59,272 bases of DNA from positions 1-59,272 of the forward strand of contig JAFXZT010000081.1 in NCBI GenBank assembly GCA_017541145.1. The letters are read 5' to 3'. Position 1 is the first letter of the stretch, and the number at the start of each line of letters is the position of its first letter. The position numbers and the translations under genes were made by a program. Below the pieces are notes generated by a model. That model saw nothing but the letters and a program-made list of their open reading frames with translations, was not told where the DNA came from and did no database searches. This DNA is from Bacteroidales bacterium. Its GTDB lineage: Bacteria; Bacteroidota; Bacteroidia; Bacteroidales; UBA3824. Below are positions 590 to 42,789 of this stretch, in pieces.

Positions 590-630
590 GAAAAAAAAGC
601 AGAATTTGCGATAAATATCGCAAACCCTGC
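590..630 (-). terminator. Rho-independent terminator of the receptor-phosphatase gene
   Basis: Arms TTTGCGAT (605-612) and ATCGCAAA (617-624) form an 8-bp stem with an AAAT loop. Outer GCAG/CTGC (599-602/627-630) pair across two mismatches. Read on the minus strand, the hairpin is followed by eight T residues (591-598 complement). It lies about 70 bases past the stop codon at 701. Confidence 0.75.
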
Positions 631-700
631 CTTAGGAAAAAAACTTATTTAATGAGGAAACAGTAAATACAAACTCGTTTTTGTATTCAAAATAAATCAG

Positions 701-3700
701 TTACGATATTTTGAAACCTATTACTAATATATCATCGACTTGCTTGTATTCGGTTCCCATCCATGCTTCGATTTTCTCGTTGAGAATATCTTTTTGTTTC
801 GGAAGTGGGTTTTCCGATATTTCCAATAAAAGTTTTTTCAATCTGCTGGACATGAATTTCTTTCCGGTTTTGCCGCCAAATTGTGATGCGTAGCCGTCAG
901 AGAAAATATACACGATGTCGTCTTTTTGCATTTCGATGTCGTAAGTTGTAAAACCAACATCCACATAGTCGTGAATACCAATCGGCATTCGGTCAGCGCG
1001 ATATTCTTCGATTTCGCCTTCTCTTACAAGGAACATCGGGTTGAATGCACCGGAGAATTGCAATTGTTTTGTATCCAAGTCCAAAATACAAATTGCAATA
1101 TCCATACCATCTTTTGCTTCGTCTATTCTACCTGTCTGCTGTAGCGATTCTATGATGCTCTCTCTCAGGAGGTCAAGAATATGTCCGGAATTCAATTTGT
1201 CTTGGTTGTTTACAATAATTTCGTTCAGGTAAGCAGAGCCGAGCATACTCATGAATGCGCCCGGTACGCCGTGACCTGTACAATCCGCTGCCACTATTAC
1301 TGCATAATTGTTGATATGTTTGAAGTAATAGAAGTCGCCGCTTACGATATCTCGCGGACGGAAAAGTATGAAGAAATCCTGCAATACTTTTTCAATATTG
1401 TCTTCGGTCGGCATTATCGCGGTCTGAATTCTCTTCGCGTAATAAATACTATCCATGATTTCTTTCTGGTGATGTGCAATTTCGTCACGCTGCTGAGTTG
1501 CAATATTTTTCTGTACTTCAAGTTCGTCTCTTTGAGAGAGAATTTCAGATTTCTGTTTCTCAAGAGTTGCGTTCTTTTCTTCGATTGCATCTCGCTGAGT
1601 AACAATTTCTTCTCGCTGAATTTCCAACTCGCTGTTTTTAAGCTCGATGGCTTCTTTCTGTTTCTTGATTTCTGAAGTACGTTCTTCTACAATTTGTTCA
1701 AGATGTTCGTTTCTGAGTTTCAGTTGAGCCTCTCTTACTTTCATTGTAGCAGTGATAATTGCAAGTGCACCAAGTATCATTATCGCAATAAACCACCATT
1801 TGCGATAATACGGTTTCATAATTTCAAAATTGTAAGGTGTTGAGTAACACCAAATTCCATCTTTACCTTTTGCTCTGTAAACAAATTGGTATTTGCCGGG
1901 AGGAAGGTTTTGATAACTTGCTCTGTGTTCTTTTCCGGATGATGCAACGTAGTCGTTTTCAAGACCTTTCATGTAAAATTCGTACGTAATTGCAGCCTCG
2001 TCCTTGAAAGAAAGTCCTGCGAGTTCAAATACAAAGTTGTTCTCATTGGCAGAAAATTTATTTCTTGTTTGTGAAATTTTTTCGCCGTTCAGTAAAATAT
2101 TTTCAAGTCGGCATTGAGGTACAGTTTTGCCGGTTTTTTCTTTCTTTAAATCGTAAACTGAAATGCCGTGGAATGTTGCCACGAACAATACACCTTTTGT
2201 ATTTAGAAGTAAACCGTCTGTTACAATTTCATTACCGGAAAGTCCGTCATTGGCATCTACGGTAAATTCTACTTTGTTTTCATTGATATTGTAGTAACAG
2301 AAACCTTTGTTTGTTCCGAGCCAAAGGTGCATTTTGTCTCTTGAAATTTTTATTGTATTGATTGAATTGTCCGGAAGTGTCGGAATATCAAGCATTTTGA
2401 GATTTCCATCGCTTGTAAAAATTCCCAAACCGTTTTCTGTACCTACCCACAATTCGTTGCCGATAGTTTCCAATCCGAGTACAGCTGTATTTGTCGGTTT
2501 CAGTCCTTCAAATGTCAATCCGTTGAATTTTACAAGTCCGGTATTGTTGCCGCCAATTATGATGTCGTTGTAAACTACCAACTTGCTGATTGCCGATGTA
2601 TACGCATTTCCGATTGGAATCGGTTGATTTTCAAATCCTTGTATTTTGTAAACTAAACCTTCAACTCCTGAGAGCAAGAATATTTCGCCTTTCGGGGCTA
2701 CAAATATGCCTCGCAAGTTGAAAATTTTGTTTTGAAATTTCATTTCTTTTTTGATTGCTAATGTCTTGCAATCCAATACATAACAACCGTAAGTGTCAGC
2801 TACAAAAATATCTCCGTTTTCAAGGTTTGCCACTACGTACGGTATTCCTTCGCCGTCAAAATGTTTTGAATATTCTACCAATTCTTGATTGTAGTAGTAA
2901 ATCTTGTTGTTGAACGCCATCCAAATTCTTCCGTTGCCGTCTTCGTTGATATTGTTCATGTAACTGTTGATTTCTTCAGGATAGAGATTTCTCAACGAAC
3001 GGTTTGTAAGTTTTTGAATACCACCTGAATATCCAAACCAATAGTTGTCTTCCTTATCTTCGAGGAAGGAGAGGAGTTTTAGATTTTTCAGACCAATTGT
3101 TTGATCGTATTTTATGGCGGTCTGTTTCAGTGAGAATATCTGATATGCCTCAAAATCAGAGAGTAAGAAAATTGATCCGTCACGATTTTGTTTTATTGTG
3201 TGGATTCTCTGTTTTGTTGGAATATTTATTTTCTCGTTGATTTTCAGACTGTCGATATTTCCGCGTGTAAATTGCGAATAGTTTCCGGTGTATATTCCGT
3301 TGGTTGTAGAAAGCCAAATTGTATTTTCGTCAACATGTACAGCATAACAATTTTGGTTGCTGATTTGTTTCAACTGGTTTTCTTTGTCAAGAGAATAAAA
3401 ACCTTCCGGTGCCGCAATCAAGATATATTTTCCGGATTTGAATTGCGCTACCGAGTTTATCAAACTTGGCAATGCCGGAATTTGACTACTCATCTGAATT
3501 TGTTGTTTGTTGTTGTTACTCAGATAGTAAAGTCCTTTGTCACCGTACAAATATTTGTTGTCGTTTTGGTCTATGAAAATATGTTTGAACGGAATATTGT
3601 CAAAATATTGTGTGAAATTTCCGTTTTTATCCAAACAACAAACGCCATCCAGTGTCGCAAAATAAATTCGATTTTTAGAATCTTGTGCGATGTCAAAAAC

Positions 3701-5536
3701 AATATTATTTTGCAAACCGTTTTCGTTGTAATATTCCACCATTGTACGACCGTTGAATTTGATTGCTCCGGCGTGAGTTCCAAACCACATGTATCCGTCG
3801 TTGTCTTGGTAAACGCACATAATATCCTCTTGCGGCAATCCTTGGTCAGAGCCGTAAAATACAAACGGGAAATATCCTGATTGATATGTTTTGTACAACG
3901 CATTCAAGTGATTTTGAGCGGCTTTGTATGGTATGCCGGCTTGTTCGAGGAATGCATCGTTGAGGATTCCGAGTACCTTGCTCGACTCCAAAAATTCCAA
4001 AATCTTTTGTCTGAGTTTCGGTTGTTGTTTTTTGATACCCCAACCTACTTGATAAATTTCACCGATTACAAATTTTGCTTCAAGTTGTGAATATTTCGGC
4101 AAGTCATAGATGTCGAAGTTCACAATTGAGTAGTCGGCATTACCTTTTATTATTTCAGAGAAAAATTCGTTAGCCTCCTTATAATAATAGTTGTCGATTT
4201 TGTTTTCGATAAGATCTTCTTCGTATGATGAACCTTTTGAAGTAACACCGCGATATTTCTTTAAGTCCTTGATTGACTTGATGTCAACATCTTTTCTTGC
4301 TACAACGATGTTTGCAGTAGGTAAAACATCAATGATATCAATTTTGTTGAGACGCCAATCCACAGGCGAAAGCAAGTCGCAAGCAATATCCACATTGTTG
4401 AATGTTTCCGGGGTGTATGCGCTGTCCTTTACAATTTCGCCTTTTGAATCTTTGAAATAGTCGGAAATACTTGGTATTATCCTGATTTCTATATCGATAC
4501 CAAGATATTTTGCAAATTCGCCAGCCAAATAATGGTTGAATTGTTTTTGTCCGTAAGGGTGATAAATCATTTCGCGGTCACGGAGCGAAACTATCAGTTT
4601 GCCCGATTCCATAATCTCGTCCAAATCGCGATAACTTACATTGTTTTGAGCGTCAATCTCTGAGTATGAGTTGATTACCTCGTTGTATGATGAATTGTCA
4701 ATACCGAATTTGTCAGTAAACAATTGGTCAAGAACTCCCGTACCTTTTATCATGTCGAAAAAGTTATCGATTTCGTTTTTGAGAGTTCTGTTGCCTTTTT
4801 CCACGCACCACGCCACATGATCGGGTTTCGCAATCGGGAATGCAAGTTTAAATTTCGGATTGTCGTTTACGAATTGCAAACCTACGTAAGATACTGTTAC
4901 AAAGCCGTCTACGCGTCCTGCTCTTGCAAGTGCCTGAGATTCTTCTTCACTTTTGGTTTTTACAATTTCTATCGCACCGTCAAGATATTCGTTGATGAGT
5001 TCGATATTTTTTTCGTAAGATGAGTTTTCCAAAATTGCAATTCTCAATCCGGCTAAGTCGCTGTATTTCTTGATTTTGAATTTTTCTTTTTTGGTTTGTA
5101 ATTTTTCCGGCTGAAAGAAATGTTCGATTACAGATTTCTGATTCCTGTTTGTTCTTACAATCAAAAGGTCAGAAACCTGCATTGTACCTGCGAAATCGAA
5201 GAATTTTTCGCGCCACGGATAAATGTACGTTGTACCACAAATGAAGTCCGCTTTCTGCAAAGCGTCAGGAGTGTAATAGATTGAATCGTCGCTCATGTAG
5301 TTTTCAGGCACTCGTCCGTTATGCGAAAACATCTCGTTCCAAGTGATAGGTACTATCTCGAGTTCGCAGTTCAGAAATTTTGCAAACTCGCTGGCAAACT
5401 GTCTGTTAACAGTCTGCATACCACTTTGCGTAAAAGCGGCTCTTACCACTCCGCTTCTTCTGATTTCATCGAGCGTACGACCGTAACTTTGTATTACAGT
5501 CAATAATAATATTAATAGTGGTATATACTTTTTCAT
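701..5536 (-). CDS. Hybrid periplasmic-sensor SpoIIE phosphatase (tandem SBP_bac_3, Reg_prop propeller, Y_Y_Y)
   Basis: This 1611-residue receptor starts with the signal peptide MKKYIPLLILLLTVIQSYG. Two bacterial extracellular solute-binding domains (SBP_bac_3-like) follow at about 20-280 (LDEIRRSGVVRAAF) and 300-525 (LDEIMESGKLIVSLRD). A Reg_prop beta-propeller spans about 560-1110, with repeats of the type VYQDNDGYMWFGTHAGAIKF. A Y_Y_Y domain (about 1160-1235) ends in PPGKYQFVYRAKGKDGIW. One TM helix (about 1245-1266) is followed by a long Glu/Gln/Lys coiled coil (1266-1360) and a SpoIIE/PP2C phosphatase domain with DIVSGDFYYF and DCTGHGVPGAFMSM. The sensors should be periplasmic and the phosphatase cytoplasmic. 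There is no kinase, receiver or DNA-binding domain, so the output is presumably dephosphorylation of a STAS-type antagonist. The frame extends upstream to 5608, but the promoter at 5576-5605 and the signal peptide place the start at 5536. Ligand unknown. Confidence 0.9.
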   Translation of the reverse strand: MKKYIPLLILLLTVIQSYGRTLDEIRRSGVVRAAFTQSGMQTVNRQFASEFAKFLNCELEIVPITWNEMFSHNGRVPENYMSDDSIYYTPDALQKADFICGTTYIYPWREKFFDFAGTMQVSDLLIVRTNRNQKSVIEHFFQPEKLQTKKEKFKIKKYSDLAGLRIAILENSSYEKNIELINEYLDGAIEIVKTKSEEESQALARAGRVDGFVTVSYVGLQFVNDNPKFKLAFPIAKPDHVAWCVEKGNRTLKNEIDNFFDMIKGTGVLDQLFTDKFGIDNSSYNEVINSYSEIDAQNNVSYRDLDEIMESGKLIVSLRDREMIYHPYGQKQFNHYLAGEFAKYLGIDIEIRIIPSISDYFKDSKGEIVKDSAYTPETFNNVDIACDLLSPVDWRLNKIDIIDVLPTANIVVARKDVDIKSIKDLKKYRGVTSKGSSYEEDLIENKIDNYYYKEANEFFSEIIKGNADYSIVNFDIYDLPKYSQLEAKFVIGEIYQVGWGIKKQQPKLRQKILEFLESSKVLGILNDAFLEQAGIPYKAAQNHLNALYKTYQSGYFPFVFYGSDQGLPQEDIMCVYQDNDGYMWFGTHAGAIKFNGRTMVEYYNENGLQNNIVFDIAQDSKNRIYFATLDGVCCLDKNGNFTQYFDNIPFKHIFIDQNDNKYLYGDKGLYYLSNNNKQQIQMSSQIPALPSLINSVAQFKSGKYILIAAPEGFYSLDKENQLKQISNQNCYAVHVDENTIWLSTTNGIYTGNYSQFTRGNIDSLKINEKINIPTKQRIHTIKQNRDGSIFLLSDFEAYQIFSLKQTAIKYDQTIGLKNLKLLSFLEDKEDNYWFGYSGGIQKLTNRSLRNLYPEEINSYMNNINEDGNGRIWMAFNNKIYYYNQELVEYSKHFDGEGIPYVVANLENGDIFVADTYGCYVLDCKTLAIKKEMKFQNKIFNLRGIFVAPKGEIFLLSGVEGLVYKIQGFENQPIPIGNAYTSAISKLVVYNDIIIGGNNTGLVKFNGLTFEGLKPTNTAVLGLETIGNELWVGTENGLGIFTSDGNLKMLDIPTLPDNSINTIKISRDKMHLWLGTNKGFCYYNINENKVEFTVDANDGLSGNEIVTDGLLLNTKGVLFVATFHGISVYDLKKEKTGKTVPQCRLENILLNGEKISQTRNKFSANENNFVFELAGLSFKDEAAITYEFYMKGLENDYVASSGKEHRASYQNLPPGKYQFVYRAKGKDGIWCYSTPYNFEIMKPYYRKWWFIAIMILGALAIITATMKVREAQLKLRNEHLEQIVEERTSEIKKQKEAIELKNSELEIQREEIVTQRDAIEEKNATLEKQKSEILSQRDELEVQKNIATQQRDEIAHHQKEIMDSIYYAKRIQTAIMPTEDNIEKVLQDFFILFRPRDIVSGDFYYFKHINNYAVIVAADCTGHGVPGAFMSMLGSAYLNEIIVNNQDKLNSGHILDLLRESIIESLQQTGRIDEAKDGMDIAICILDLDTKQLQFSGAFNPMFLVREGEIEEYRADRMPIGIHDYVDVGFTTYDIEMQKDDIVYIFSDGYASQFGGKTGKKFMSSRLKKLLLEISENPLPKQKDILNEKIEAWMGTEYKQVDDILVIGFKIS

Positions 5537-5605: not shown

Positions 5606-5737
5606 CAATTATTATCAATTTTTGTGCCTTATTTCCCTAATTTTTTTTCTTGACGTAAAAATCGGTCTTATTATATTCGCAAATTTTTGGTAATTCTCTC
5701 AGTTTTTTCCCTTTACTGTAAAAATTATTCACCAATT

Positions 5738-5823: not shown

Positions 5824-5925
5824 ACAAATGAAAGAAGTTCATCTTCTTCCAACGATTTGATTGTTTGTTTGATTTTTTTTAACCTAAAAATGCCGGATTG
5901 ATTAATTTCTGCCGGCATTTTTTTT
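5824..5925 (+). ncRNA. Candidate small RNA of about 100 nt
   Basis: A promoter-like pair (5786-5817) and a strong terminator (5886-5925) enclose about 100 bases in an intergenic gap between two minus-strand genes. The 5' part has a small hairpin, AGAAG (5833-5837) with CTTCT (5843-5847) around TTCAT; the 3' part is the terminator stem. The only reading frame is ten codons (ATG at 5828, stop TGA), so a tiny leader peptide is possible but unconvincing. No known RNA family is recognised. This is an inference from signal layout. Confidence 0.4.
5886..5925. terminator. Bidirectional terminator
   Basis: An 11-bp stem (AAAAATGCCGG at 5886-5896 with CCGGCATTTTT at 5912-5922) has T-tracts on both strands. 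On the minus strand it follows the lipoprotein stop at 5924. On the plus strand it would end the candidate small RNA. Confidence 0.8.
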
Positions 5926-6526
5926 AATTTGTCTTGATTTTCAGCGATTTTACCATTTCAAACATATCGTTTTTGTTTTCTACAATTCGTTTTTGTGAAG
6001 TCATTGCATATACTTGATAAAAATTTGTAGCACTTTCGTACAAACATAATACAACGTATGACTTTTCGCCTTTTATTTTTTCTTTGTATTCTAGGATTCT
6101 GGCTTTTAAATCGTTGATTATTGTATCTTTGTTTTGCTTGGATTCTATCGTAAAATTGTCCGAATGGTTTACCAAATGGTCAATCACCAAAAATTCAAAT
6201 CCGGCAAGCCCGTAAATATTTTTGTTTTTTGTAGAATCAAAACATTCTGCCTCGCTAAACACCTTGATATTCTGGTCGATAAGCTTTTTGTATTCGTGAA
6301 TATCCTCTTCTATTACCATAAACGAAATGCCCTTGTCGAGATTTGCGTATTGAATTTGCGCCGAACTATTTATACCCGACATCGTGTGCATATCTTTGGG
6401 CAATGTTACAGTATATTTACCGTTTGGAGATTCTATAAACTGTTTATTATCAGAGTTTTGATCATTTTTACAGCCGGTTGGTATCAATGCTGCTGCAAGC
6501 AAAAATATTTTTATCAGCTTTTTCAT
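5924..6526 (-). CDS. Lipoprotein of unknown function
   Basis: A 200-residue protein with a lipoprotein-type signal, MKKLIKIFLLAAALIPTGC, so it is probably lipid-anchored at Cys19. The mature part begins with a polar linker (KNDQNSDNK). A small alpha/beta domain follows, with FIESPNGKYTVTLPKDM near its start and MFEMVKSLKIK at its end, a layout like exported PsbP/DUF1795-type proteins. I do not recognise a named family. Its ATG lies 2 bases beyond the stop of the aminotransferase gene, so the two are almost certainly cotranscribed. The transcript ends at the hairpin 5886-5925. Confidence 0.75.
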   Translation of the reverse strand: MKKLIKIFLLAAALIPTGCKNDQNSDNKQFIESPNGKYTVTLPKDMHTMSGINSSAQIQYANLDKGISFMVIEEDIHEYKKLIDQNIKVFSEAECFDSTKNKNIYGLAGFEFLVIDHLVNHSDNFTIESKQNKDTIINDLKARILEYKEKIKGEKSYVVLCLYESATNFYQVYAMTSQKRIVENKNDMFEMVKSLKIKTN

Positions 6527-6528
6527 AA

Positions 6529-7659
6529 TTAGGGTTTTATCTTTAAATATTCTTCTAATCTCCGCATTCCTTCTTGCAAGTTTTCCAACGAATTTGCATA
6601 AGAAAAACGCAGAAATCCTTCACCTTGACTGCCAAAATCTGTGCCAGGGGTTACGCCAACGTGCGCATTTTCCAATATTTCAAACGCAAATTTATAACTG
6701 TCATTGGTAAATTTTCTTGCGTCGGCATAAACGTAAAACGCTCCTTGTGGTTTTGTCCAAATTTTGAACCCGATTTTTTCCAACACACTTATTAAATATA
6801 TGCGTCGCTCGTTATAAATTTTTTTCATTCTTTCCACATCTTCACTTGCATATTTTATAGCAGCAATTCCGGCATATTGCGAAACTGACGGTGCGCAGAT
6901 GAAAAGATTTTGTTGCATAATTTGCAAAGTTCTCATATATTGCTCAGGTGCAACAAGATAACCAAGTCGTAAACCTGTCATCGCAAATCTTTTGGAAAAG
7001 CCGTTGAGCACAAAAGCATTTTTCGTGTATTCAAGAATAGAGTGAGCTTTGCCTTCGTAAACCAAACCATGATAAATTTCATCTGAAATTACAGTAATTC
7101 CCAGATTAGCAATAGATTGCATGATTTCAGGTTCAATCAAAGTTCCAAACGGATTGGATGGTGAATTAATAAAAATTGCTTTTGTTTTACATGTTATAGC
7201 CTTTTTAACATCCTCAATATCAATCTTAAAACCATTTTCCGGTGCAAGTTTTATTTCTTTGGGCACGGCATTAACAGCCAAAATAAAATTGGAGTAGCAC
7301 GAATATCCGGGATTAAAAACAATAACCTCGTCGCCGGGAGAGCAAAGCACACGCAATACCATAAGAATCGACGGTGACGAGCCGGCATCTACAACTATTT
7401 GATTTTCACTGAATTCTACGCCATATTCTCTTTTGTAAAGGTTTTTGATTTCATTACGTAAATCCACATCACCGAGCGAATGAGTATAATGTGTTTTACC
7501 AAGTTGCATTGCCTCGTTAACCGCATTTTTTACGCAAGCCGGTACATCAAAATCCGGTTCACCAACTTCCATGTGAATTATGTTAATACCCTTACGTTCA
7601 AGCTCTTGAGCCTTTTCCAAAACCTCCATTACAATGAAGGGTTTCATTTTTTCTAACAT
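6529..7659 (-). CDS. Pyridoxal-phosphate aminotransferase, class I/II (AspC-like)
   Basis: This 376-residue fold-type I aminotransferase should be cytoplasmic and transfer an amino group from an amino acid to a 2-oxo acid. The PLP-lysine is K223 in GFSKRFAMTGLRLGYL. N169 (SPSNPFGT), D193 and Y196 (SDEIYHGL) are the usual cofactor contacts, and a C-terminal arginine lies in GFLRFSYANS. MEVGEPDF near residue 31 is typical of the aspartate/aromatic aminotransferase subgroup. Length is normal for the family. Substrate cannot be fixed from sequence; aspartate, aromatic amino acids or alanine are candidates. It is first in a two-gene unit with the lipoprotein. A -7-like TATTTTTG lies at 7690-7683, about 25 bases upstream of the start. 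Confidence 0.88.
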   Translation of the reverse strand: MLEKMKPFIVMEVLEKAQELERKGINIIHMEVGEPDFDVPACVKNAVNEAMQLGKTHYTHSLGDVDLRNEIKNLYKREYGVEFSENQIVVDAGSSPSILMVLRVLCSPGDEVIVFNPGYSCYSNFILAVNAVPKEIKLAPENGFKIDIEDVKKAITCKTKAIFINSPSNPFGTLIEPEIMQSIANLGITVISDEIYHGLVYEGKAHSILEYTKNAFVLNGFSKRFAMTGLRLGYLVAPEQYMRTLQIMQQNLFICAPSVSQYAGIAAIKYASEDVERMKKIYNERRIYLISVLEKIGFKIWTKPQGAFYVYADARKFTNDSYKFAFEILENAHVGVTPGTDFGSQGEGFLRFSYANSLENLQEGMRRLEEYLKIKP

Positions 7660-17130: not shown

Positions 17131-17493
17131 ATGGACGAGAAACAATTTGAAGTCATAAAGAAAGATAACTATACGATAATAAGCGTTTTAGTAGAAAAGT
17201 TGGATACGCATATTGCTCCAGCCGTTAAGTCTGAACTTGTTTTGATTGCCGGAAACGGTGAGAAAAACATTATCATTGATTTGAAAAAGGCTCGTTATTG
17301 CGATAGTTCAGGGTTGAGCGCAATATTGGTTGCCAACAGACTTTGCAAAAACGCAAACGGTATTTTCGTACTGACCGGTTTGCAAACTGCCGTTGAAAGA
17401 TTGATTTCAATTTCTCAACTTGATACAGTTTTAAACATCACTGACTCTATCGAAAAAGCAGTGGAATTTATCGATACTAAATCCGATGAATAG
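17131..17493 (+). CDS. STAS-domain protein (anti-sigma factor antagonist type)
   Basis: A 120-residue single STAS domain of the SpoIIAA/RsbV type. The phosphorylation-site motif is CDSSGLSAILVANR, with Ser59 in the position of the regulatory serine. In known partner-switching systems the unphosphorylated STAS protein binds a serine kinase/anti-sigma factor, and a SpoIIE/PP2C phosphatase reactivates it. No kinase is encoded in this window. The phosphatase at 701-5536 is the only visible candidate partner, and that link is inference. It follows rpsA, so it may be expressed strongly with it. The pair ends at the terminator 17523-17561. Confidence 0.88.
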   Translation: MDEKQFEVIKKDNYTIISVLVEKLDTHIAPAVKSELVLIAGNGEKNIIIDLKKARYCDSSGLSAILVANRLCKNANGIFVLTGLQTAVERLISISQLDTVLNITDSIEKAVEFIDTKSDE

Positions 17494-37655: not shown

Positions 37656-37683
37656 CATCGTAACAACATCTTTGTATATAATC

Positions 37684-40600
37684 ATGAAATCAACTGTAAA
37701 AAATAATATATTTCTTTTTTTCTTTTTTCTACTATTTGTTGAAAATGTAACTGCTCAGGTTTCTACGTATCCGCATACGGAGGGTTTTGAATCCGGTTTG
37801 AACGGTTGGAGTCCTGTGCCTGATGGCGGAAGTGTGCAATGGAAATGTGGTACAGGTAATTCTGCACAGCATACAATTCAGGAAAACGGTACTTTAAAAA
37901 TTCTTACCGGACCTTCGGCTGCACATTCCGGAAACCGTTTTGCTTTTGTTGATACTTACAATGACAGACCTTCTAAATCGGTTGAAATGATTAAGCATTT
38001 CAATTTCAAGGATTTAAAGAACCCGATTTTGAGTTTTTACCTTAATGCTTGTTTCAACAATGGTGATGGTGCTGTATTTCATGTTTATGCAAAAGCAAAC
38101 GGTGACTATTATTATGTTGATCTTTGGCGTAATTTTGAAAATCTTGGTGAAGATTGGGTAAAAATTAATGTCTGTCTTGACGATTATGCAGGTGTAGAAG
38201 ATGTAATTTTGAAATTTTCAGTTGATAAAACTTCTGATATATATTCCAACGTTGCAATTGATGATATTAAGATTGAAGATTTTACGGTGGATGCCGAGGT
38301 TACTGATGTTACATGTTATGGTTACGAAGACGGTGAAGTGCTTGTAACTCCGCATGGTGCAGGACCTTACTATACATATTCTGTTAACAACGGAGCATCT
38401 TTTACCGATCCGGGTCATAATACAACTTCGTATTCTTTCAAAAATTTGGTTGCAAAAGGTTATCCCGTAATGATTCGCGATGTGGCTTCGGGGTGCGTGG
38501 CGAGAAATAGTCTTGTAACTGTTGTTCAACCTGCTGAAATTGAGTTGGATATCGAAAAAAAAGATATACTTTGTTACGGTGCTAAAAGTGGTGAAATCAA
38601 AATCAAAGCCTCGGAATCCACCGGCAACAACACACCGTATTATTATTCCATCGACGGTTCGTATCCGAATGAGGTCAGCGATATTTTCAAAAATCTTACA
38701 GGTGGAAATTATTCTGTAAGAGTTCGCAACAACAAAGGATGTTTAACAGAACCTCAAGAAGTAAAAATTGGTGAAAATGTTTTGCTTTCTATTGAAGAAG
38801 TTAAAATCAATAATATCCAAAAATGTTACGGTGATCTTACCGGAAGTGTTGTTGTATCAGTAATTTTCGGTGACAACGGACCGATAGATTATTCGTTGGA
38901 CGGCGGCGTAACATACAATAATGGTCTCAATCAGTTTTCGCGTCTTGCTGCCGGTACTTACAACCTTGTTGTAAAAGACCGTAACAACTGTACAATTACT
39001 TATGGCGAAGATGTTGTTGTAACTCAGCCGGATAAATTAATTTACGAGGAGACAGTTGTTACCAACGTAGAAGGCTGTTCCGGCGATCGTACCGGAGCAC
39101 TCGAAATGAAAGTCAGCGGTGGTACACAACCATATTATTATTCACTTACGAGAGGAGTTTCGTTTTTAAATTCTCCGATTTTTAGCGATTTGAAAGCCGG
39201 AAATTATGTGCCGTATGTTTCTGACGGCAAAGGTTGTTTGGTAGTTGGTGACGAAGTAATTATCTCAGAGCCTGAGCCTTTGGCATTCAAATCAATAAAA
39301 TCAAAAGATGTAGAAACATGTTTTGGAGATGAAACCGGAAGTATTGAAATTGTGTCTTCGGGCGGTACAGGTGACATTCAGTATTCGTTGACCGGTGACG
39401 ACAGCAATTTGCAATCTTCGGGATCTTTCCCGACATTGGGTGCCGGAATTTATTATCCGTTTATTATTGACTCTAAGGGTTGTACAAAAACTACATCAGA
39501 GATTACTATTTCACAACCTACTAAATTTGAAGTTTTAACAGTAACACCTATCAGCGATGCAAATTTGTGTTATGGCGATGCAAAAGGTCAGGTTTTCGCA
39601 TTTGCGTCGGGTGGTACATCGCCATATTATTTTTCTGTTGACAATTTTGCAAATTCAGTTTCCATAGATGATTATACATCAGCTGCTATTATCGGCAAAC
39701 TTGCTGCCGGTGACTATAAATTGTATTCTAAAGACCAAAATGGTTGTAGCGGCGTAACAACGGATTTTAAAATTACTCAACCCGAAGAACTTCATCTTAC
39801 TGATGTTGAAATTTCAGATGTTGATTGTTACGGTAACAAAACAGGTTCTGCAATTTTGACAGGAGAAGGCGGCGTAACTCCATATTCTTACGGTTATTCC
39901 AAATCCGGCGAAAATTATTACAGATATTTTACAAATCCGCAAATTATTGATATGTATGCCGGTGCCTATGATTTTTCTATAAAAGACAACAATGGATGTC
40001 TTGCTTTTAGCAAAGGTTATACTATTGAACAGCCTAATGAATTTGAAGTCACACAGATACGGGCAACTCCGGTTTCTACATGTTACGGCGATGCCAACGG
40101 CGGAATTGATATTGTTGTAAAAGGTGGTACAAAACCTTACAAATATTCTATCGACGGAGGTGAAACCTTTGTTGACGATTGGTCGTTTAATAATCTAAAA
40201 GGTGCAGTAGACGGATATTCCGTAGTGGCGAAAGATGCAAATGGTTGTACATTTTTACCGGTTTCCATTTCGATTTCGCAGCCTACTCCGCTTGAAATTT
40301 TCGGTCTTTACTATAATGAAGTTCAAGGTTGTAAAGGTTCGGACAACGGTAGCATAGTTTTTTCGGGTAAAGGTGGTACTGGAAAATTGTTATATTCGTT
40401 GGACGGCGTAAATTTCAATAATGAGTCTGGAGAGTTTAAAAATCTTCCGGCGGGAGTTTACAAACCTTCAGTGCAAGATGCAAACGGCTGTATTACAACC
40501 AGAGACGTGGATATTACGATTACCGAACCCGACAAGATGGAGATAACATCGATTACTACAACTCCTGTTACTTGTAACGGTCAGTCAAACGGCGAGGTCG

Positions 40601-42789
40601 TAATTGAAGTAACCGGCGGAAGACAATTTCAAGTTGATTTTCCTTATAAGTTTTTCTTCAACGGTTATGATGATCCGTTGACGTATGACGGTTTTCTTGA
40701 CGGATTGAAAGCCGGAGAATATGATTTTTTTGTAGAAGATTATTATAAATGTACGTTGGAAGGCAGTTTTACGATAGAACAGCCTGAAAAATTGGAAATT
40801 TCGTCAATTGATATTGTTAACATCGAAAAATGTCACGGCGATTTAACAGGTTCATTGAAAATAAATTGTAAAGGCGGTGTTGAACCGTTAACTTATTCAA
40901 TTTCAGGTTTAAGTGCTTCAGAATCCAACGAAACGGGAGAGTTTACCGGACTTGGTGCTCACAGTTTTGAAGTTGCGGTAAGAGATGCTAACAATTGTAA
41001 AGTATTTGCTTATCCGGAATTGTCAGAGCCGGAAGCCGTTTCTTATTCTGCAAAACTTGTAAAATCAATACGTTGTCACGACAGCGAATTGGCTGAAATT
41101 GATGTAACAGCAAACGGCGGAACAGGTAATTTTAAATATTCGATTGATAACGGCGAAAATTATGATTACACAGATCCGAAAATTACAGGTTTGGATCGCG
41201 GAACATACAAAGTAAAAGCCATGGATGAAAACGGTTGTACACAAAAATATTGTATTACGATATCCGTTACCAATCCGGAGGAGCTTACAATAGAAGCTGA
41301 GGCTTACGATGTTGTATGTTTTACAGGTAATACCGGAAAAATTATTTCGGCAGGTCACGGCGGTACAAGACCATATTTTTTCTCGCTTGACGGCGGAAAA
41401 TCTTGGCAGCAAAACACCGGACTTTTTAGGGAACTTTCCGACGGTGTTTACAAAGTGATTCTCAAAGACGATAATGATTGTCTTGTAGAATCTGAGGAAC
41501 TTACAATTAACAGACCGGATAATATTGCTAAATTTTCGGTAAGTGTAGACGAAGGATGTTCTCCGTTGAAAATCGTTATTACTCAGGAACATGAAGGTAT
41601 TGCAAATTATAAAATTTCAAACGGAGATTTAATTTATGACCGTACCGAACCGACAGAATATACTTTAGTGAATCCGTTAACAACTACTCAAAAATTCAAA
41701 ATTGAGTCGTCGTTGATGTTGACAACGGGTGCAGGATGTTCGGATACTTCGTCGGCATACGTTACTGTATTTCCTAAGCCAAAAGCGAATTTAGTTATGC
41801 AAACAAATTCAATAGTTTGGCCTGACAATATCGCAAATTTTATCAACCTGACACCGAATATTACAACTGCTCATTGGGATTTTGGCGATGGAACTACATC
41901 AGATGAACTTCATGTAAATAATCATGAGTACGAAACTTGCGGTAGTTACAATATTATATTGCAAGTAAGCGACGGCGTTTGTTCTGACGAGGTAACAGAA
42001 AATTTTGTGATAGAAGGTCGTCCGTTGTATGCTGTTATCAAAACAGATACAGCATCGGGATGTCAACCGGTATCCGTAAAATTCAAAAACGAGTCAGCAA
42101 ATTCTGATTCCTGTATGTGGGATTACGGCGACGGATCTCAGCCGGTTTACAATGTTTGGTCAACAGATCATAAATACGAAGCCGCCGGAGATTATACAGT
42201 TTCGTTGACAATTTATGGTGATTGCGGTGTACAGGCTACTACTACAAAAGTAATTCATGTATACCCGAAACCGACAGCCGGATTTATACAAAATCTTGAT
42301 ACATTGTATGCCGGTCAGGTTTTGAAAGTGGAATCTCAAAATTCGTTGTCCGACCATTGTATTTGGAATTTTGGTGACGGTAAAACAGAAACCGGACGTA
42401 CTGCCGAGCACAAATTTGAGTACGACGGAGTTTACACATTGTCGTTGATTGTAAATACAAGTAATTCTTGTAGTGATACTTCGGAAGTTAAAAATGCAGT
42501 AGTTGTGGTTTCAACACCGATAGTTGTGTTCCCTACAGCTTTTAGTCCGAACGGTGACGGTCTCAACGACGTTTTCAAGCCGATTCACGGAGATGTTGCC
42601 GAGTTCAAAATCGTAATTCTCAATCGTTTGGGCGTTATTGTTTATCGCGGTAACAATATCAACGAAGGTTGGGACGGAACACGAAACGGCAGACCTTGTC
42701 CTCCGGGATTGTATGTTTGGAAATCAACTACCACGCTGAGGGACAAATCTTTTTTCCAACAGCAAGGTCACGTAATACTTTTGAAATAA
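37684..42789 (+). CDS. Giant SprB-repeat/PKD adhesin with T9SS type B sorting domain
   Basis: A 1701-residue secreted protein. After the signal peptide (ending VENVTAQ) comes a MAM-like jelly-roll domain (about 30-195, GFESGLNGWSPVPDGG). Thirteen SprB-type repeats of about 80-85 residues follow (about 200-1280). Each has the pattern V-x-C-x-G-x3-G...GGTxPYxYSxDGG...L-AGxYxxxVxDxxGC...I-xQP. Four PKD-like domains come next (three with W[DN][FY]GDG). A gliding-motility-type C-terminal domain ends the chain (PTAFSPNGDGLNDVFKP ... PCPPGLYVWKST). That domain is the type B signal for the type IX secretion system, so it should be exported and surface-bound or released. SprB is the mobile gliding adhesin of Flavobacterium; adhesion is likely here, gliding is not implied. 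TTG 37672 is in frame but ATG 37684 fits. Confidence 0.92.
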   Translation: MKSTVKNNIFLFFFFLLFVENVTAQVSTYPHTEGFESGLNGWSPVPDGGSVQWKCGTGNSAQHTIQENGTLKILTGPSAAHSGNRFAFVDTYNDRPSKSVEMIKHFNFKDLKNPILSFYLNACFNNGDGAVFHVYAKANGDYYYVDLWRNFENLGEDWVKINVCLDDYAGVEDVILKFSVDKTSDIYSNVAIDDIKIEDFTVDAEVTDVTCYGYEDGEVLVTPHGAGPYYTYSVNNGASFTDPGHNTTSYSFKNLVAKGYPVMIRDVASGCVARNSLVTVVQPAEIELDIEKKDILCYGAKSGEIKIKASESTGNNTPYYYSIDGSYPNEVSDIFKNLTGGNYSVRVRNNKGCLTEPQEVKIGENVLLSIEEVKINNIQKCYGDLTGSVVVSVIFGDNGPIDYSLDGGVTYNNGLNQFSRLAAGTYNLVVKDRNNCTITYGEDVVVTQPDKLIYEETVVTNVEGCSGDRTGALEMKVSGGTQPYYYSLTRGVSFLNSPIFSDLKAGNYVPYVSDGKGCLVVGDEVIISEPEPLAFKSIKSKDVETCFGDETGSIEIVSSGGTGDIQYSLTGDDSNLQSSGSFPTLGAGIYYPFIIDSKGCTKTTSEITISQPTKFEVLTVTPISDANLCYGDAKGQVFAFASGGTSPYYFSVDNFANSVSIDDYTSAAIIGKLAAGDYKLYSKDQNGCSGVTTDFKITQPEELHLTDVEISDVDCYGNKTGSAILTGEGGVTPYSYGYSKSGENYYRYFTNPQIIDMYAGAYDFSIKDNNGCLAFSKGYTIEQPNEFEVTQIRATPVSTCYGDANGGIDIVVKGGTKPYKYSIDGGETFVDDWSFNNLKGAVDGYSVVAKDANGCTFLPVSISISQPTPLEIFGLYYNEVQGCKGSDNGSIVFSGKGGTGKLLYSLDGVNFNNESGEFKNLPAGVYKPSVQDANGCITTRDVDITITEPDKMEITSITTTPVTCNGQSNGEVVIEVTGGRQFQVDFPYKFFFNGYDDPLTYDGFLDGLKAGEYDFFVEDYYKCTLEGSFTIEQPEKLEISSIDIVNIEKCHGDLTGSLKINCKGGVEPLTYSISGLSASESNETGEFTGLGAHSFEVAVRDANNCKVFAYPELSEPEAVSYSAKLVKSIRCHDSELAEIDVTANGGTGNFKYSIDNGENYDYTDPKITGLDRGTYKVKAMDENGCTQKYCITISVTNPEELTIEAEAYDVVCFTGNTGKIISAGHGGTRPYFFSLDGGKSWQQNTGLFRELSDGVYKVILKDDNDCLVESEELTINRPDNIAKFSVSVDEGCSPLKIVITQEHEGIANYKISNGDLIYDRTEPTEYTLVNPLTTTQKFKIESSLMLTTGAGCSDTSSAYVTVFPKPKANLVMQTNSIVWPDNIANFINLTPNITTAHWDFGDGTTSDELHVNNHEYETCGSYNIILQVSDGVCSDEVTENFVIEGRPLYAVIKTDTASGCQPVSVKFKNESANSDSCMWDYGDGSQPVYNVWSTDHKYEAAGDYTVSLTIYGDCGVQATTTKVIHVYPKPTAGFIQNLDTLYAGQVLKVESQNSLSDHCIWNFGDGKTETGRTAEHKFEYDGVYTLSLIVNTSNSCSDTSEVKNAVVVVSTPIVVFPTAFSPNGDGLNDVFKPIHGDVAEFKIVILNRLGVIVYRGNNINEGWDGTRNGRPCPPGLYVWKSTTTLRDKSFFQQQGHVILLK

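Follow-up and report, generated by a model that had tools for sequence, protein, structure and literature searches.

The locus described here raises the question of what a bacterial membrane receptor might sense, and to what it might report, when two solute-binding flytrap domains and a Reg_prop propeller are placed ahead of a SpoIIE-type phosphatase. It lies in a window of 59,272 nucleotides, the whole stretch of DNA that was analysed, from the contig JAFXZT010000081.1 of a Bacteroidales bacterium that probably lives in a gut. A preliminary description had proposed that this protein could turn uptake-type ligand binding directly into serine dephosphorylation.

Architecture and distribution of the receptor

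The receptor gene, its domains and its two upstream neighbours are placed in the window as follows.

701..5536, (-): receptor gene, 1611 aa from the ATG at 5536; an in-frame TTG at 5608 would lengthen it by 24 aa
5480..5536, (-): signal peptide, residues 1-19, recognised by eye
4682..5479, (-): flytrap domain 1 (VFT1), residues 20-285, with Trp108-Arg109; from Pfam, profile comparison and predicted structure; Trp and Arg in 65/65 aligned rows
3947..4651, (-): flytrap domain 2 (VFT2), residues 296-530, with Trp394-Arg395; from the MltF model, profile comparison, and predicted structure with Foldseek; Arg in 65/65 and Trp in 64/65 rows
2057..3889, (-): Reg_prop propeller region, residues 550-1160; from Pfam; 14 repeats, counted by eye
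1823..2008, (-): Y_Y_Y domain, residues 1177-1238; from Pfam
1733..1804, (-): membrane helix, residues 1245-1268 (approximately), the sole helix above threshold
1424..1714, (-): coiled coil, residues about 1275-1371; anchors Val1283 and Asp1362, 79 residues apart (2 modulo 7)
704..1381, (-): SpoIIE/PP2C phosphatase domain, very probably SiaA-type, residues 1386-1611; from Pfam and sequence matches
5924..6526, (-): small secreted or lipoprotein-like gene upstream of the receptor; no Pfam match
6529..7659, (-): class I/II aminotransferase gene (PF00155) upstream of the receptor; its cluster has 10 sources, the window included

In the orthologues L077, L078 and L079 residue 1 aligns with residue 1 of the ATG-start receptor. 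The domain order originally proposed was recovered in full, with the coil present and all four families above the Pfam cut-off (Reg_prop 69.2 bits, SpoIIE 60.2, SBP_bac_3 41.1 over residues 94-274 and Y_Y_Y 38.2). No Pfam match to a histidine kinase, receiver or HTH domain was seen at E values up to 1, and neither HAMP nor SLT was matched by Pfam. Given a signal peptide, judged by eye, and a single membrane helix, the flytraps, propeller and Y_Y_Y domain should lie outside, and the coil and phosphatase inside.

It is clear that this architecture, and the family that shares it, are real. The same receptor is encoded at no fewer than 65 loci in named genomes (L094-L158), found among the 79 loci that make up the best 80 of 82 confirmed matches, which rules out a chance fusion or frame artefact. 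Frames of 1526-1651 aa are present at 46 of these loci (that of L106 runs off its contig), while 18 shorter ones are cut by a contig end; at L140 the frame stops early (744 aa), with a 714-aa frame behind it in the same direction. Each of the 46 long frames (above 1500 aa) carries SGD, D(C/S)TGHG, DGxD and SDG, and in 43 of them a pattern search also recovered the C-terminal DD motif. The remaining 14 loci (L159-L172), which are all the non-receptor loci of the named-contig scan among the matches listed, are MltF-like, with the length of MltF and its Glu-Ser motif. By their titles the 65 receptor loci are mostly Bacteroidales or Bacteroidetes, six being Chlorobi or Chlorobiota, and at least two assemblies contribute two loci each. 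Loci from the guts of deer, goat, sheep, yak and horse are nearest to the window; further ones are from sediments and comparable settings.

When 59 genomes (the receptor's own included, and some of them also covered by the named-contig scan) were searched with residues 20-545, the receptor was found in 21, namely 17 of the 18 genomes of the genus and four others of the order (G024, G031, G033 and G053). G005 shows no more than a contig-cut piece, and six further genomes gave weak partial matches; the three such loci that were read (L070, L071 and L072) are MltF-like. Four relatives from other families of the order contain the same four Pfam families, with Y_Y_Y just below the cut-off in L090. 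In a phylum sample, nearly all of it from outside the order and so with little bearing on spread within it, the receptor's own genome and 79 of 394 others matched the 65-row alignment with at most three candidates scored per genome; among the matches listed, only the own genome reached the full double-flytrap length. Among eight of the longer partial matches from this sample, six have ends that look, by eye, like binding-protein/permease fusions and two like histidine kinases, and SpoIIE motifs were searched for in these eight and not found. A scan of viral contigs with the flytrap region confirmed no relative.

Several neighbouring genes were also noted. The small secreted-protein gene belongs to a cluster of eight sources, the window included, and adjoins the receptor in seven of them (the window and 6/65 loci). 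Another cluster, AHSA1-like by Pfam in L132 (L132:9553-9930), stands directly before the receptor in 20/65 loci. Elsewhere in the window, a protein with six S1 stretches is followed at 17131-17493 by a single-domain STAS protein, which accounts for one of the genome's three STAS matches. The region 37672-42789 encodes a 1705-aa product in which SprB repeats and PKD domains are accompanied by a CHU_C type IX secretion signal.

Ancestry and ligand pocket of the flytrap domains

Two solute-binding domains of differing sequence had been predicted within residues 20-525, and both are present. The first is found by Pfam. The second, scanned alone, reaches 15.4 bits for SBP_bac_3 (E 0.016), below the Pfam cut-off, and is instead recognised by the NCBIfam MltF model (45.3 bits, E 4e-12), by profile comparison with VFT1 (E 1.1e-29) and in the predicted structure; in one relative, L091, the best SBP_bac_3 stretch is the second flytrap itself. 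The two are 25% identical in the profile alignment. An AlphaFold2 model of the tandem, made from the 65 aligned rows, has a mean pLDDT of 85.7, and its top Foldseek matches, over about the whole length, are GlnPQ SBD1-SBD2 (E 1.9e-23), BvgS (8.5e-19) and EvgS (2.5e-18); these tandem structures are placed above MltF.

By sequence, the NCBIfam MltF model is the best match of both flytraps. A profile of 18 MltF flytraps matched VFT1 at E 1e-29 and VFT2 at E 7e-22, against 5.4e-11 and 0.0013 for HisJ/ArgT and 0.0015 at best for EvgS, although these comparisons are of unequal depth, HisJ/ArgT being a two-sequence profile and the EvgS flytraps single sequences. With shallow profiles on both sides, VFT1 is nearer to the HisJ/ArgT pair than to the single E. 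coli MltF (E 1.6e-8), and VFT2 the reverse (E 3.2e-10 with MltF). The link to MltF is remote (23% identity), and in PDB searches the amino-acid binding protein AncQR came first, with P. aeruginosa MltF lower. In a tree of 44 domains (11 of the 65 rows for each flytrap, 18 MltF, HisJ, ArgT and two from EvgS) VFT1 and VFT2 form sister groups (0.91) that join MltF before EvgS (0.77); the tree is rooted on HisJ and therefore cannot test MltF against transport proteins. At the level of sequence, a tandem duplication that would predate the radiation of the family is supported, and an origin of the flytraps from MltF is likely but not settled. As regards the idea of uptake-type binding, most sequence comparisons place these domains nearest to the MltF regulatory domain rather than to uptake proteins, the AncQR result excepted. 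The receptor is the sole SBP_bac_3 match in the genome.

The aligned position which we take to be that of the amino-group Asp of amino-acid binding proteins holds Asp in 28/65 VFT1 and 2/65 VFT2 sequences, being lost from 63/65 of the latter, and in VFT1 of the window it is occupied by Val215. Propeller and Y_Y_Y together form the sensor of hybrid two-component systems, and the loss of this Asp from most flytraps would fit a receptor in which, as in the glycan-sensing members of those systems, the propeller is the true sensor, while the flytraps bind no diffusible ligand and are either structural or touched by a periplasmic protein; the small secreted-protein gene that adjoins the receptor would fit this as well. 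Arg109 and Arg395, however, which are presumably at the carboxylate-binding position, are both kept in all 65 rows. Furthermore, conservation of the flytraps roughly equals or exceeds that of the propeller in 13 rows from the genus (identity to the window of 65-74% for VFT1 and 68-86% for VFT2, against 60-71% for the propeller; the SpoIIE domain is at 76-87%). We therefore consider flytraps devoid of a diffusible ligand rather unlikely, and prefer flytraps that bind one. The N-terminal domain of MltF is described as switched by muropeptides (PMC10746161), and the titles of PDB entries record MltF crystals with cysteine, leucine, valine, isoleucine and a muropeptide. By analogy, a ligand of the MltF class with altered chemistry is plausible, and its assignment to amino acids or muropeptides is tentative.

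Coiled coil, phosphatase and likely target

The distance between the two anchors that flank the coil is 30, 37, 44, 51, 58 or 79 residues and is 2 modulo 7 in 50/50 members, these being the window and the 49 loci that have both conserved flanking motifs (L146, which is truncated ahead of the coil, and frames of at most 1250 aa were left out). L113, with Ile at the first anchor and counted apart, has a distance of 58, also 2 modulo 7. A tree built from the first 1100 residues and rooted at its midpoint implies at least six changes of coil length, and a second interval inside the coil (7, 14 or 28 residues) again has all its lengths equal modulo 7, which is true of none of 26 other variable inter-anchor intervals in the same 50 proteins. 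Whole-heptad lengths are expected if a continuous coil must hold its register from the membrane to the phosphatase. This pattern is strong evidence for a register-locked coil that would carry the signal, and we have good confidence in transmission by this route; duplication of a 21-base unit could be an added source of heptad-sized steps. A model of the RsbU linker agrees: there a coiled-coil linker is the means by which sensor domains govern a PPM phosphatase dimer (PMC12143880).

The metal-binding Asp residues of the phosphatase, whose loss had been named beforehand as the point that would tell against it, are intact, with SGDF, ADCTGHGVPGA, DGMD, SDG and DD all present. In the PDB the C-terminal 337 aa are matched best by SiaA-PP2C (6k4e, E 1.5e-32), with the next solved phosphatase at E 3.5e-4. 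The NCBIfam SiaA model (NF038263) scores 176.6 bits over residues 1314-1610, far below its curated cut-off of 700 bits, as against 23.2 for the spore SpoIIE model. The active-site residues D457, D474, G477, D600, G601 and D653 listed for SiaA (PMC7647112), when placed by alignment and motifs, correspond to D1401, D1418, G1421, D1547, G1548 and the DD at 1601-1602. Asp604 of SiaA (third metal, water-mediated) is replaced by Ser1551; in 46 relatives this position is Asp in 26 and Ser in 20. On these comparisons the output is judged SiaA-type with high confidence. The serine dephosphorylation first proposed is accordingly not upheld, the target known for P. aeruginosa SiaA being a threonine, Thr68 of SiaC (PMC7647112).

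Genes for a SiaB-like (DUF6272) protein and SiaC, identified by Pfam on cluster members from L112 and L119, lie upstream of the receptor on the same strand in 8/65 loci among the matches listed. They directly precede it in L112, L121, L122 and L123; a TPR-SpoIIE gene stands between in L119, L124 and L125, and two frames in L129. Eight is a lower bound, since L104, L118, L120, L133 and L141 have almost no upstream sequence. In the window the receptor is beside neither siaB nor siaC, and none of the eight linked loci is in its genus. Its genome contains 46 SpoIIE and 17 SiaC matches, 17 DUF6272 matches spread over 12 frames and, at 97% estimated completeness, no GGDEF match; SiaC and DUF6272 had no match in any of 14 control genomes. 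SiaC occurs in 21/21 genomes with the receptor and 14/38 without it (Fisher p 4.5e-7, 17 of the 21 being of one genus); outside that genus the counts are 4/4 and 13/37 (p 0.024).

All 11 SiaC proteins of the eight linked loci have YFNTS where P. aeruginosa SiaC has YLNTS; they were selected with a pattern covering part of the phosphosite, and BLAST clustering free of that pattern also gives 11, from the same eight loci. The aligned Thr was equated with Thr68 by alignment and residue counting, with an offset of one residue in the PDB chain. Seven SiaC proteins read from the window genome likewise have Asn-Thr at the aligned phosphosite. From the SiaA-type output together with the SiaB-like and SiaC genes upstream in these loci, the target is likely to be the SiaC threonine. 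Weighing against this target are the presence of SiaC in 14/38 receptor-free genomes and the 46 SpoIIE matches of the genome, which make pairing of the receptor with any one SiaC tentative.

STAS proteins are the classical substrates of SpoIIE and RsbU phosphatases, and a STAS-domain anti-sigma antagonist could be the target here too, with transcription through a sigma factor as the output; the single-domain STAS gene in the window is in keeping with that precedent. We think this improbable: the genome has three STAS matches, one within a 554-aa frame, against its 17 for SiaC, no other solved phosphatase of the SpoIIE fold does better than E 3.5e-4, well behind SiaA, and relatives of the receptor are linked to siaB and siaC. 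Alternatively, the likeness to SiaA may mark a general PP2C branch of these bacteria, the receptor supplying a broad phosphatase to a large network in which its linkage to siaBC is incidental. The genome does hold dozens of paralogues of the SpoIIE domain, at 29-47% identity, and no more than three of the SpoIIE matches have a DUF6272 match 300 bases or less away. Yet each of these three (C189, C30 and C41) directly precedes a DUF6272 gene, so that SiaA-SiaB pairs do exist in this genome, and the linkage beside the receptor is seen repeatedly and in two forms, one with intervening TPR-SpoIIE frames and one lacking them. A broad phosphatase therefore seems unlikely, and dephosphorylation of SiaC is still preferred.

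With 17 SiaC and 46 SpoIIE matches and no GGDEF match, the genome appears to hold a large Sia-type network that lacks diguanylate cyclases, and the output of SiaC is probably unlike the c-di-GMP output of Pseudomonas. In connection with a SiaC-SiaD structure, its authors suggest that modulation of neighbouring proteins is common among DUF1987 proteins (PMC8457831). Two long ABC_tran and ABC2_membrane proteins were seen near SiaC genes (L212:5658-8960 and L221:5911-9000). At another place in the genome (L220, G000:C62:75001-84000, 619-5075) a SiaB-like gene with a double DUF6272 and a SiaC gene come directly after ftsA and ftsZ and are co-oriented with them, an order that hints at Sia-type control of cell division.

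Proposed switch and comparison with known systems

The reading that we favour, and hold to be moderately probable, makes the protein a receptor-phosphatase that spans the membrane and acts in a Sia-type partner switch. Two periplasmic flytraps, probably derived from an MltF-type regulatory domain, would bind small carboxylate-bearing ligands, for which amino acids or peptidoglycan-derived peptides are candidates. Their closure would be passed through the propeller, the Y_Y_Y domain and the one membrane helix to a cytoplasmic coiled coil, which we infer to be dimeric and whose register or stability would set the activity of the SiaA-type PP2C domains, whether ligand raises or lowers it. A SiaB-like kinase would phosphorylate the SiaC threonine and the receptor phosphatase would remove the phosphate; free SiaC would then switch an effector, probably not a diguanylate cyclase. 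A more specific version, which we regard as doubtful, is a cell-wall sensor: the flytraps would keep the muropeptide reading of MltF, and the receptor would report peptidoglycan turnover through SiaC, with no c-di-GMP output, to another machine. Cell division is a conceivable one, given the SiaB-SiaC pair directly behind ftsA-ftsZ.

As had been supposed, no described precedent for the domain order was found in the open-licence PMC literature, outside which most subscription papers lie; it gave nothing for SpoIIE with Reg_prop, SpoIIE with SBP_bac_3 or DUF1987 with Bacteroidetes, and SpoIIE with "Venus flytrap" only, by title, in the context of ParA partitioning. The unusual part is, however, narrower than first described. 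Of the 14 Y_Y_Y matches in the genome, five share a contig and a same-length frame with a SpoIIE match, so that propeller/Y_Y_Y sensors with SpoIIE are apparently not rare here; it is the flytrap pair in front of them that is unusual.

Hybrid two-component systems of Bacteroides consist of Reg_prop, Y_Y_Y, kinase, receiver and HTH domains; the receptor has their propeller and Y_Y_Y sensor but differs in the flytraps in front and in a phosphatase output, with no match to their kinase, receiver or HTH. BvgS and EvgS, whose output is a kinase, likewise carry tandem periplasmic flytraps on a membrane sensor, whereas the receptor has a propeller and no histidine kinase match, and single EvgS flytraps give no significant profile match to its own. 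MltF has the flytrap nearest to VFT1 and VFT2 by the NCBIfam model and the deep profile; in the receptor there are two flytraps, no SLT domain and a signalling output.

SiaA of the P. aeruginosa SiaABCD system is the nearest solved relative of the PP2C domain by sequence, with metal-site Asp and Gly positions in common, and both proteins are membrane-anchored phosphatases, the receptor's relatives being in part linked to siaB and siaC. SiaA, however, has HAMP and two membrane helices (PMC7647112), where the receptor has two flytraps, a propeller, Y_Y_Y, one helix and a coil, and its pathway ends in the diguanylate cyclase SiaD, while the receptor's genome lacks a GGDEF match. It is in Pseudomonas, with SiaC feeding a diguanylate cyclase, that Sia-type switching has been worked out; a receptor with identifiable sensors tied to a Sia switch in a genome with no GGDEF match would make a role of SiaC apart from c-di-GMP testable. 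Lastly, RsbU and RsbP resemble the receptor in that sensors control a PPM phosphatase dimer through a coiled-coil linker, and differ from it in their sensors and in a known STAS target, RsbV; a series of whole-heptad linker lengths is found in the receptor family, and none is mentioned for RsbU/RsbP in the portion consulted of that account (PMC12143880). The heptad-locked coil is natural evidence for the idea of coiled-coil linkers as the exchangeable joint between sensors and PP2C phosphatases.
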